From Natronobacterium texcoconense (GTDB lineage Archaea; Halobacteriota; Halobacteria; Halobacteriales; Natrialbaceae): 64,000 bases of DNA. The notes beneath the pieces are model-generated. The model had not been told where the DNA came from. It did no database searches and worked only from the letters and a program-made list of their open reading frames with translations. Positions 21,681 to 27,939 of the stretch are shown one piece after another. The number at the start of each line of letters is the position of its first letter. Position 1 is the stretch's first letter. The DNA lies in contig NZ_FNLC01000003.1 in assembly GCF_900104065.1 (NCBI RefSeq), positions 310,001 to 374,000 on the forward strand, in the 5' to 3' direction. The translations under genes and the position numbers were made by a program.

Positions 21681-23240
21681 CTAGCTGAACTTCTGGACCG
21701 TCACGTCTAGCGTATCCAGATCGACGATCGGTGCGTACCCCGAGTCGGGGTCGATGTTGACGCTCTTCTGGAAGTCGGTCTGGGCCTGCCAGCAACCGGA
21801 GTTGATCGCGAGCACGTTGTGGTACTTGCCGAAGCCGAGTTTGTGGACGTGGCCGGTGTGGAAAATGTCGGGGACCTCGTCGATGACGAGATAGTCCTCC
21901 TCTTCGGGTGCAAGCCGGGTGTGGCCCCCGAACTGCGGCGCGACGTGGCGTTTCTTCAGAAGCTGGTACATCGCCTTGTGCGGATCGTCGTAACTCGCCT
22001 TCTCCTCCGGAAGTTCGGCGATGACCTCGTCCAGGGAGACGCCGTGGTACATCAGGACCGAGACGCCCTCGATGGTGACTGTGGAGGGGTTGCTGACGAT
22101 GCGGGGATCGTGGGCCGACATGATCTCCCGGAGCTCCTCGTCGAACCCTGGCTGGGGTTCGGCGAGTCGAACCGCGTCGTGGTTGCCCGGGATCATGACG
22201 ATCTCTAAGTCGCCGGGAACCTGCTTCAGGTGCTCGTTGAACGCCTCGTACTGGTCGTAGATGTCGACGATCTCGAGTTCGTCGTCCTGGTCGGGATAGA
22301 CACCGACACCCTCGACCATGTCGCCCGCGATCAGCAGGTACTCGACGTGCTGGGCCTCCGCGGTGTGGAGCCAGTCGGCAAAGCGGTTCCAGGCCTCGGC
22401 CATGAACTCGTCGCTGCCGACGTGGACGTCGCTGATCAACGCGGCCTGGACGTGTCGGTCGGCCGTCGACGGCTCGTACGTACGGGGGACGTCCGGGAAG
22501 TACATCGAGTCGACGAAGCCGATTCCTGCGTCGTCCGAGAGCGTTCCCTCCATCGCCAGCGCCTCGTCACAGAGCAGTTCGTTCACCAGGTCGGCGTACT
22601 CTCGGTCCTTCATCACCAGCCAGGGGAACGTTCCGGTAGCGTCCTCGAGCTCGATCAACCAGTGGCCGCTGGCGGTCGACCGGACGTCGTTGACCAGCCC
22701 GACCATCGCGGCCTCGCTCCCGCCGGGCATGTTCTGGATGGCCGTCGCCGGCCGGTGGTTGACTCGACCGCGTAGCTTCGACCCCAGTCGGTCGAGACGG
22801 TCGCGAAACACCGAGACGAAATCCTCGTACTCCCCCGTCCCGGTACTGTCGCCGGTCATGTCGCCGACGATCTCGAGGGAGCGTTTCTCGGGATCGACCG
22901 ATCGATTTGCGGCCTCCGTAGACCCCTCTGTTTCAACTGGAGACGAGACACCCGATCCGCCAGTGGGCGTGGAAGCAGCTCCAGTTGAAACAGGGGGGTC
23001 TGGCGGCGAGGAATCAGTCGACGAAGCGGCGGGTGACGGAGACGATTCGGTAGCCGTCAGTGCGGCGTCGACGTGTTCGGTCCGGACCACCAGCGCGTCG
23101 TCCGGAACCTCCTCTAAGACTCGCTCGAGGGCCGCGGCATTGTCGTCCGTCGCTGCGAGACGGGTTACAGCCTCGCGTTCCGCGTTGTAGCCGCGGCTCG
23201 TGAGTTCGCTGACGATCCGGGCGGGGCCCTCGAGTGGCAC
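21681..23240 (-). CDS. polB: DNA polymerase D small subunit (DP1, 3'-5' exonuclease)
   Basis: A 519-residue small subunit of the archaeal replicative polymerase D. After an N-terminal helical part (1-60) comes a Ser/Pro/Thr/Glu-rich linker (about 62-130), an OB-fold region, then the Mre11-like phosphoesterase domain with its metal ligands in ISDVHVGSDEF, IAGDMVEG, IPGNHDAVRL, MYHGVS and HTGHVHKLGF. The start is the GTG at 23240 (MPLEGPARIV), with a TATA-like CTTTTTTCT about 26 bases upstream; earlier codons in frame lack family similarity. Two origin-recognition-box-like sequences lie within the linker-coding part. The catalytic large subunit DP2 is not in the window. Confidence 0.95.
   Translation of the reverse strand: MPLEGPARIVSELTSRGYNAEREAVTRLAATDDNAAALERVLEEVPDDALVVRTEHVDAALTATESSPSPAASSTDSSPPDPPVSTGAASTPTGGSGVSSPVETEGSTEAANRSVDPEKRSLEIVGDMTGDSTGTGEYEDFVSVFRDRLDRLGSKLRGRVNHRPATAIQNMPGGSEAAMVGLVNDVRSTASGHWLIELEDATGTFPWLVMKDREYADLVNELLCDEALAMEGTLSDDAGIGFVDSMYFPDVPRTYEPSTADRHVQAALISDVHVGSDEFMAEAWNRFADWLHTAEAQHVEYLLIAGDMVEGVGVYPDQDDELEIVDIYDQYEAFNEHLKQVPGDLEIVMIPGNHDAVRLAEPQPGFDEELREIMSAHDPRIVSNPSTVTIEGVSVLMYHGVSLDEVIAELPEEKASYDDPHKAMYQLLKKRHVAPQFGGHTRLAPEEEDYLVIDEVPDIFHTGHVHKLGFGKYHNVLAINSGCWQAQTDFQKSVNIDPDSGYAPIVDLDTLDVTVQKFS
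22922..22942 (-). repeat. ORB-like sequence inside polB, left copy
   Basis: Read on the minus strand this is CTCCAGTTGAAACAGAGGGG followed by T. It matches the oriC box at 27917-27939 at 18 of 21 positions. It codes for linker residues SPVETEGS (about 100-107) of the polymerase subunit. Confidence 0.6.
22979..22999 (+). repeat. ORB-like sequence inside polB, right copy
   Basis: Read on the plus strand this begins CTCCAGTTGAAACAGGGG and ends in GGT, sharing the first 15 bases with the left copy but in opposite orientation, 36 bp away. It encodes a different peptide (PPVSTGA, about residues 82-88), so the resemblance is at DNA level and not due to a repeated protein motif. Confidence 0.6.
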
Positions 23241-25100: not shown

Positions 25101-26822
25101 TCAGTTCTCGAATCGCGCCTGAACGAACGGCTGGACGTCGTCGATGTCGGAGAGCCGGGAGTCCGACAGCAGGACTGCTTCGGTCTCTTCCTGTGGGACG
25201 GAGAGGCTGATCTCCTTCGTTCGCCCGTACCGGCCCTTCGAGACGACGACGGCGTTGACGATCCCGAGCATGTCGAGTTCGCTGATGAGGTCGGTGACGC
25301 GACGCTGAGTGAGCACGTCGGCGTCGATCTCCTCGCAGAGGCGCTTGTAGATGTTGAACACCTCGCCGGTGTTGATGCTGTGGACGCCGTTTTTCTCGAG
25401 CAGGATGATCGAGAAGAGGACGAGCTTGCTCTGGGTGGGGAGCGTACGGACGACCTCGACGACCCGATCGAGTTCGATCTTGTCCTGGGCCTGCCGGACG
25501 TGTTCCTCGACGATGGTCTCGGCCTGGGAGCGTTCGGCGAGTTCGCCAGCGGTCCGCAACAGGTCGAGCGCGCGTCGCGCGTCGCCGTGTTCCTGTGCTG
25601 CGAACGCGGCACAGAGCGGGATCACGTCGTCCGAAAGAGCACCCCCTTTGAACGCGACATCCGAGCGATGTTCCAGAATGTCCCGGAGCTGGTTCGCGTC
25701 GTACGGTGGGAAGACGATCTCCTCCTCGCCCAGCGAGGACTTGACGCGCGGATCGAGGAAGTCGGTGAACTTCAGGTCGTTCGAGATGCCGATAATCGAG
25801 ACTCGCGAATTCTCGAGTTCGGAGTTCATCCGCGAGAGGTTATAGAGCGTGTCGTCACCGCTTTTCTCGACGAGTTTGTCGATCTCGTCTAACATGATGA
25901 CGACGACGCGTTCGTCGTAGTCGACCGCGTCGAAGAAAACGCTGTAGACCCGGTCGGTCGGCCAGCCGGTCATCGGAACCTCCTCGAAGGAGTCTCTGTC
26001 CTCCTCGAGACTCTCGATTTGCTCTTCGACTTCCTCCCGGGAGTCGAACGGCGTCGACTCGAGTGGATGGTCCGGCGGGAGCGTCGCGTCGACACTATCG
26101 TCGGTTTCGTGGCCGGGTTCGGCGTCGGTCGACGCACCGGTGAACGACCCCTCCGTTTCGTCTGTAGAATCGCTAGACGGAGTTTCGCCACCCTCTCCAG
26201 TCGAAGTTGAGGTGTTTGCGTCCGTCGAGACGGGTTCTACCTCCGGCGGCTCGAAGAGGTCGCCCTCCGTTTCGTCTCCGGCGGCATCCGCGGCGTCGGA
26301 ACGTTCGTCGTACTCCTCGAGAGCGTCGAGACGGTCCTCGAGCGAGTCGATTCGGTCGTCGATCCGGCGCTGGTTCTTCTCGATGAACTTGTTGGCAAGC
26401 TGTGCGAGGACGCGATACTGGGTGTCGGTCACCTCGCAGTTGATGTACTCGACGTCACACGGGACGCTGTACTTCTGGGACGTGCTCTCGAGTTCCTTGC
26501 TGACGAACTTCGCGCTGGCGGTTTTCCCGGTCCCTGTCTTCCCGTAGATGAGGATATTCGAGGGGGTTTCGCCACGAAGTGCGGCGACGAGAATCGTCGC
26601 CATCTTGTTGATCTGGTCGCTTCGGTGTGGTAACTCGTGTGGCGTATAGGAAGGGCGCAGCACCTCCTTGTTCTCGAAGATAGGCTCGCCGCTGAGCAGG
26701 TCGTCGAACAGTCCTTGCTTGGGTTCGTCGTCGCCGAGATCGGTTCCCTCGAGATCGGTCGAGAATCCGTCTATACCGCCGACGTCGTCCGAACCAGTCG
26801 TTTCCGTATCCTCGTCTGACAT
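25101..26822 (-). CDS. orc1: Orc1/Cdc6 replication initiator with a long acidic insertion
   Basis: A 573-residue origin-binding AAA+ protein. The AAA+ part has Walker A GKTGTGKTAS (about residue 96) and Walker B VVIMLDEIDKL (about 315), sensor-1 SIIGISNDLKF, the lid region, and a C-terminal winged helix (LTQRRVTDLISELDMLGIV) that binds origin boxes. Typical haloarchaeal Orc1 proteins are about 400-420 residues; the excess is a disordered acidic Ser/Thr/Glu-rich insertion between Walker A and Walker B (about residues 160-290), starting with a coiled-coil-like RRIDDRIDSLEDRLDALEEYDER. The gene faces away from the adjacent origin, as in the conserved haloarchaeal oriC1 locus. An origin-box-like sequence sits immediately upstream of its ATG, where it could mediate autoregulation. 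Confidence 0.95.
   Translation of the reverse strand: MSDEDTETTGSDDVGGIDGFSTDLEGTDLGDDEPKQGLFDDLLSGEPIFENKEVLRPSYTPHELPHRSDQINKMATILVAALRGETPSNILIYGKTGTGKTASAKFVSKELESTSQKYSVPCDVEYINCEVTDTQYRVLAQLANKFIEKNQRRIDDRIDSLEDRLDALEEYDERSDAADAAGDETEGDLFEPPEVEPVSTDANTSTSTGEGGETPSSDSTDETEGSFTGASTDAEPGHETDDSVDATLPPDHPLESTPFDSREEVEEQIESLEEDRDSFEEVPMTGWPTDRVYSVFFDAVDYDERVVVIMLDEIDKLVEKSGDDTLYNLSRMNSELENSRVSIIGISNDLKFTDFLDPRVKSSLGEEEIVFPPYDANQLRDILEHRSDVAFKGGALSDDVIPLCAAFAAQEHGDARRALDLLRTAGELAERSQAETIVEEHVRQAQDKIELDRVVEVVRTLPTQSKLVLFSIILLEKNGVHSINTGEVFNIYKRLCEEIDADVLTQRRVTDLISELDMLGIVNAVVVSKGRYGRTKEISLSVPQEETEAVLLSDSRLSDIDDVQPFVQARFEN
26147..26167 (-). repeat. Weak ORB-like sequence inside orc1
   Basis: On the minus strand it contains GACGAAACGGAGGGGT, one base from the box core GAAACGAAGGGGT. 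About 30-40 bp to the right (near 26196-26216, plus strand) is CTCCAGTCGAAGTTGAGGTG, a poorer inverted partner. It lies in the acidic-insertion coding region (STDETEGS). The ETEG codons alone could create the core, so this is tentative. Confidence 0.3.
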
Positions 26823-26835
26823 TCGTCGTACACGT

Positions 26836-26856
26836 ACCCCCTCGTTTCGAGTGGAA
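26836..26856 (-). repeat. Origin recognition box A
   Basis: Minus strand reads TTCCACTCGAAACGAGGGGG then T, matching the box family (TTCCA-N3-GAAACGAAGGGGT). It starts 14 bp upstream of the orc1 ATG, so Orc1 bound here would cover its own promoter. Confidence 0.7.
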
Positions 26857-27610: not shown

Positions 27611-27633
27611 ACCCCTTCGTTTCAGGTGGAACT
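27611..27633 (-). repeat. Origin recognition box B
   Basis: Minus strand carries TTCCACCTGAAACGAAGGGG then T, continued by a run of G (27605-27610), the G-string typical of haloarchaeal boxes. It matches box E at 21 of 23 bases in inverted orientation. Confidence 0.85.
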
Positions 27634-27916: not shown

Positions 27917-27939
27917 AGTTCCAGTTGAAACGAAGGGGT
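27917..27939 (+). repeat. Origin recognition box E
   Basis: Plus strand carries TTCCAGTTGAAACGAAGGGG then T, followed by GGGGG (27940-27944). It is the inverted partner of box B across about 280 bp containing an AT-rich stretch. Confidence 0.85.

Follow-up and report, generated by a model that had tools for sequence, protein, structure and literature searches.

A fixed-spacing inverted pair of origin recognition box-type sites inside the PolD small-subunit gene of haloarchaea

The gene for the PolD small subunit (DP1) of haloarchaea carries an inverted pair of origin recognition box (ORB)-like sequences. Judged by its sequence and conservation, this pair very probably serves as a binding element for Orc1 that is both ancient and dual-coding, overlapping the DP1 coding sequence. 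We describe it in a 64,000-nucleotide stretch of the Natronobacterium texcoconense genome (hereafter the window; contig NZ_FNLC01000003.1, positions 310,001 to 374,000) and follow it through other haloarchaea.

The DP1 gene occupies 21681-23240 of the window on the minus strand, has a GTG start and is identified by the NF003116 equivalog model (E=1e-297) and by DNA_pol_E_B. First-pass annotation had reported two inverted ORB-like 21-mers in this gene, 36 bp apart. Both are present, at 22922-22942 on the minus strand (CTCCAGTTGAAACAGAGGGGT) and 22979-22999 on the plus strand (CTCCAGTTGAAACAGGGGGGT), and the repeat extends to two 23-bp arms that are 22/23 complementary. The arm at 22920-22942 (minus strand; CTCCAGTTGAAACAGAGGGGTCT), here called box S, is sense to DP1 and codes for PVETEG. 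Box A, at 22979-23001 (plus strand; CTCCAGTTGAAACAGGGGGGTCT), is antisense to DP1, and its complement codes for DPPVSTG. Each box contains a perfect 14-base ORB core. The 36-bp spacer between them (22943-22978, 67% GC) keeps its length across species but not its sequence. The pair lies 240–320 nt downstream of the GTG start, in the code for a variable linker between the N-terminal part of DP1 and the phosphoesterase domain (Pfam 267-464). Its G-strings point outward, as in the oriC1 boxes, and it is ~4.6–5.0 kb from oriC1, in agreement with the orientation and the distance of about 5 kb given earlier. The two boxes are also read in different frames (SPVETEGS versus DPPVSTGA); that they are translated differently had been noted.

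A genome-wide motif scan, proposed in the first-pass annotation as a check on the pair, returns few equal matches. The scanned core, TCCA-N3-GAAAC-N3-GGGGT, has 14 specified bases and occurs perfectly 8 times in the 4,009,868-base genome and 13 times at up to one mismatch. The perfect cores are the oriC1 pair (left box 27611-27630, minus strand, and right box 27920-27939, plus strand, which served as reference boxes; 27611-27631 and 27919-27939 as 21-mers), one core 5' of orc1, the two DP1 boxes, two between htpX-like and nmd3-like genes and one at 252 kb of the contig. A narrower pattern gave 3 matches in the window against 0.11 expected, and the exact DP1 box pattern, allowing up to three mismatches, matched only the DP1 pair in the whole genome. 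The htpX-like/nmd3-like cores (155660-155679 and 155813-155832 of contig G000:C3) share one orientation and lie ~180 kb from oriC1, with no orc1-like gene found in the 3-kb locus; the htpX-like gene encodes a protease. The core at 252 kb belongs to an inverted ORB-like pair (252009-252028 and 252681-252700 of the same contig; one box perfect, one mismatched) whose boxes are 672 bp apart. It lies near rhodanese-like and IscU-like genes, again with no orc1-like gene found in the 3-kb locus.

The DP1 boxes were first described as matching the oriC1 boxes at about 18 of 21 bases. This holds for the plus-strand oriC1 box (18/21), but identity to the other is ~16/21. Across species, positions 1–4, 8–12 and 16–20 are near-invariant alike in the oriC1 boxes, the box 5' of orc1 and DP1 boxes S and A, and each of the four positions of GGGG is fixed in 87–100% of DP1 boxes. 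The DP1 pair thus shares with the G-string-bearing oriC1 ORBs the invariant core, the inverted arrangement and the outward G-strings. It differs in lying inside coding sequence and in detail: DP1 boxes prefer CAGT where oriC1 boxes prefer CACC, have G at position 14, follow GGGGT with C and are without the additional TGGG tail that oriC1 boxes carry. From the shared positions we strongly infer that Orc1 binds the DP1 boxes, though its affinity may differ from that for oriC1.

A role as a second origin is disfavoured by the GC-rich spacer. No 60-bp stretch below 55% GC, as expected of an AT-rich unwinding element, occurs in 22800-23100, compared with 35% GC in oriC1, and spacer GC averages 65% across species. 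An origin with an unwinding element is therefore rejected on composition, since the 36-bp spacer is short and GC-rich and there is no AT-rich stretch nearby.

Similarity between the boxes could in principle reflect the encoded protein, with PVSTG and PVETEG acting as short interaction motifs and the likeness to ORBs being incidental; in most species the peptides do reappear in an unchanged frame. To avoid circularity, sites were selected from the amino acid sequence alone, as P.E[TA].G and P.[VA]S.G in the linker, before third codon positions were read. In box S these were T in 70/70, A in 69/70, A in 70/70, G in 70/70 and G in 68/70 sites; in box A they were C, T, T and A, each in 47/47. The invariant T of box S precedes the proline codon, and the amino acid there may be S, V, A, T, D or G. 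Several of the fixed codons are otherwise rare in DP1 genes (expected at 5–14%, in a comparison whose sites were picked by box match). Residues also change where the ORB is degenerate (V to P, A or H), and both boxes fit the oriC1 profile. When synonymous codons were resampled under the same proteins, 0.00 genes had a pair at up to one total mismatch, against 43 observed. Because species count as independent in this null, the size of the difference is not a probability; the third-position result stands apart from it. A protein motif as the sole cause is rejected by third-position constancy and the synonymous null, and we regard the protein reading as extremely improbable. The third positions are essentially fixed whatever the residue. 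Chance is rejected by the genome-wide scans together with the synonymous null. It is strongly supported, on these sequence comparisons, that the boxes are ORB-type sites selected as DNA.

Selection on RNA is very improbable. The inverted arms could pair in DP1 mRNA as a conserved hairpin, and those of the window can form a stable fold (predicted −47.8 kcal/mol), but degenerate positions show no covariation across the two arms (3.34/6 matches versus 3.24 ± 0.12 when shuffled, fraction 0.21), the arms match on average at only 16.1/20 positions, and Halorubrum-type genomes keep one arm only. An mRNA hairpin as the conserved entity is rejected, given the absence of compensatory changes between arms and a clade with a single arm.

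The pair is widespread among haloarchaea and persists in relatives, where the first-pass annotation had asked for its conservation to be checked. It occurs in the same register in 5/5 genomes of the genus and as an inverted pair in DP1 of 29 of the 30 best genomes of the family, almost always with 58-bp spacing. Across the order, 262/392 genomes and 66/95 genera have inverted boxes spaced by exactly 58 bp, while a reversed control pattern gave 0; all 20 of the loci fetched from other families with a 58-bp pair have it inside DP1. This tally understates the spread of the pair, because most apparent absences carry another frame-preserving spacing or one box: among 30 genomes without an exact 58-bp pair, most have a pair at 54–55, 69–70 or 75 bp, or a single box. 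Outside the order, a search pattern without the haloarchaeal G-string found a core-exact pair with a gap of 30–60 bp in 2 of ~240 genomes sampled from the phylum's other orders. That the pair is an oddity of one genome or genus is rejected, as it spans haloarchaeal families.

For an estimate independent of the boxes, we took a census of 80 named haloarchaeal species picked by DP1 homology alone, plus the window (n=81). Box S is present in 79 of these DP1 genes and the full inverted pair in 65, with a start-to-start spacing of 58 bp in 59 of the 65. The linker around the pair varies in length (34 distinct values on the N-terminal side, 24 on the C-terminal side), and the oriC1 boxes are 182–608 bp apart, with 42 different spacings in 60 loci. 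Because its spacing is constant amid a variable linker while that of oriC1 varies, the DP1 pair is, in sequence terms, a fixed-geometry module of its own. The initial view, that a linker free to vary had drifted toward a binding site, is not supported: the pair appears to be ancestral and strongly constrained amid a linker that varies. Box A is absent chiefly from Halorubrum and its relatives, the pair is degraded in Haloferax, Halolamina and Halorussus, and both boxes are wanting in a few DP1 genes (L100, L104, L106), so the pair is not essential everywhere. Extra ORB-like boxes occur near or downstream of the 3' end of DP1 in Haladaptatus, Halorussus and Haloferax species (four loci).

DP1 is commonly beside orc1 and oriC1, and the pair is usually 3–6 kb from oriC1. 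Genomes with unlinked DP1 are few (~8). Haladaptatus-type genomes keep it with DP1 ~12–27 kb from orc1, and Halosegnis has a perfect pair with DP1 ~78 kb away on a single 384,399-bp contig (L242, L275). In L228 DP1 is on another contig. Perfect pairs remain at 14–78 kb from oriC1 or on a separate contig; in L096, where the distance to DP1 is 61 kb, one box is perfect and the other degraded. A single genome of genus g87 that places DP1 and orc1 on different contigs was examined, and it lacks boxes (L104, L272). The pair travels with DP1, and close linkage to oriC1 is not needed. A strict dependence on that linkage is not supported, the pair being kept at 12 to ~80 kb, though the g87 genome is boxless. 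When a long distance separates DP1 from orc1, there is a perfect ORB core shortly downstream of orc1 (position 11605 in L271, 9105 in L275 and 9596 in L276), possibly as a replacement site.

These distances bear on an accessory role at oriC1, in which Orc1 on the DP1 pair would loop to Orc1 on oriC1 (handcuffing) or aid helicase loading. The orientation shared with the oriC1 boxes and the common adjacency of DP1 to orc1 and oriC1 are in keeping with such a role. We consider it improbable nonetheless, because perfect pairs persist far from oriC1 or on a separate contig and because a minimal oriC1 fragment suffices as a plasmid origin (PMC3936714).

Titration of Orc1 is the main rival to the reading that we prefer, and we rate it as rather unlikely. 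The pair would be copied soon after oriC1 fires, bind Orc1 and limit re-initiation, its fixed spacing building a holding or off-switch complex. Proximity to oriC1 in most genomes, an origin-like inverted pair that lacks an unwinding element, and the location here of two perfect sites out of just eight genome-wide are all consistent with sequestration or inactivation, and titration of Cdc6E by an ORB-rich region in Haloarcula hispanica is a precedent (PMC3936714). Two sites are few for this purpose, however, and the pair persists with DP1 tens of kilobases from oriC1. A sink acting in trans would also work without a fixed spacing and outside coding sequence, yet one gene keeps the pair.

Our first choice, put forward tentatively from the sequence pattern, is that the DP1 pair is an intragenic operator for Orc1-dependent control of DP1. 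Two Orc1 molecules would dock on it, G-strings outward, as a complex of fixed geometry. Bound 190–430 nt downstream of the DP1 start, Orc1 would hinder elongation or reshape local chromatin, and expression of DP1, and thus of PolD, would then be set by the amount of free Orc1. The remaining ORBs of the DP1 and orc1 loci cluster at oriC1 and just 5' of orc1. A perfect core lies at 26836-26855 (minus strand), 14 bp upstream of the start codon of orc1/cdc6 (25101-26822, minus strand, adjoining oriC1; NF001625 ORC1-type, E=7.5e-197). It has counterparts in most of the named haloarchaeal loci examined and is likely a site of autoregulation. A small set of Orc1-responsive genes consisting of orc1 and DP1 is the simplest reading.

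Within the orc1 linker-coding region of the window there is also an ORB-like box with one mismatch (26147-26166, minus strand). Most Natrialbaceae have a sense ORB-like box in the orc1 linker code, in the same frame and encoding peptides like SPVETEG, frequently accompanied, 49 bp upstream, by a degraded antisense partner. Together with the 5' box and this intra-orc1 box of Natrialbaceae, the operator proposed for DP1 would form a small Orc1 regulon of the initiator gene and a polymerase gene. It is possible, and held with reserve, that this arrangement is common to haloarchaea, with Orc1 directly controlling DP1 and its own gene via a fixed-spacing intragenic ORB pair and coupling initiation capacity to polymerase supply. 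Several observations weigh against an operator: DP1 promoter regions have no consistent ORB, a location 190–430 nt inside the gene is unusual, some lineages have lost box A, carry a degraded pair or have no box, and persistence at 12–80 kb is compatible with titration, which can act in trans.

Haloarchaea are polyploid and have several origins, and how they adjust initiation is poorly understood; oriC2D, a control element already published, lies in intergenic DNA. A fixed-spacing initiator-like site in a polymerase gene suggests an apparently unreported regulatory contact between the initiator and the replication machinery. That different haloarchaeal families have retained the site, with rare codons fixed as the price, implies that the contact is important. 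The box type is known; the place and the geometry are new. In the open-access literature, to which the search extended (subscription papers lay outside it), we found no earlier report of ORBs in DP1. A published survey of haloarchaeal ORBs was confined to intergenic DNA immediately adjoining orc/cdc6 genes (PMC3528665); this accounts for how a pair within a gene could have escaped it. The portions of a Haloferax replication review drawn on here place DP1 (HVO_0003) close to oriC1 and orc1, describe PolD as little studied there and make no mention of ORBs in DP1 (PMC7776575).

Among known systems, the DP1 pair resembles Haloarcula hispanica oriC2D in having ORBs outside an origin, near an origin–orc pair, that may act as an initiator sink. 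oriC2D consists of 11 ORBs in a 722-bp intergenic region beside cdc6E, whereas DP1 has two boxes inside a gene (PMC3936714), so the pair is not a many-ORB intergenic cluster beside an orc gene of the oriC2D type. Escherichia coli datA, which titrates or inactivates DnaA, likewise groups a few initiator boxes at a distance from the origin (PMC3936714), but it involves another initiator in another domain of life, and the role of the DP1 pair is putative. For control of genes by an archaeal Orc protein, the precedent is the transcription regulator Orc1-2 of Sulfolobales. Orc1-2 is a non-initiator paralogue that acts in the DNA-damage response (PMC9738581), whereas the DP1 pair uses the box type of the true initiator.
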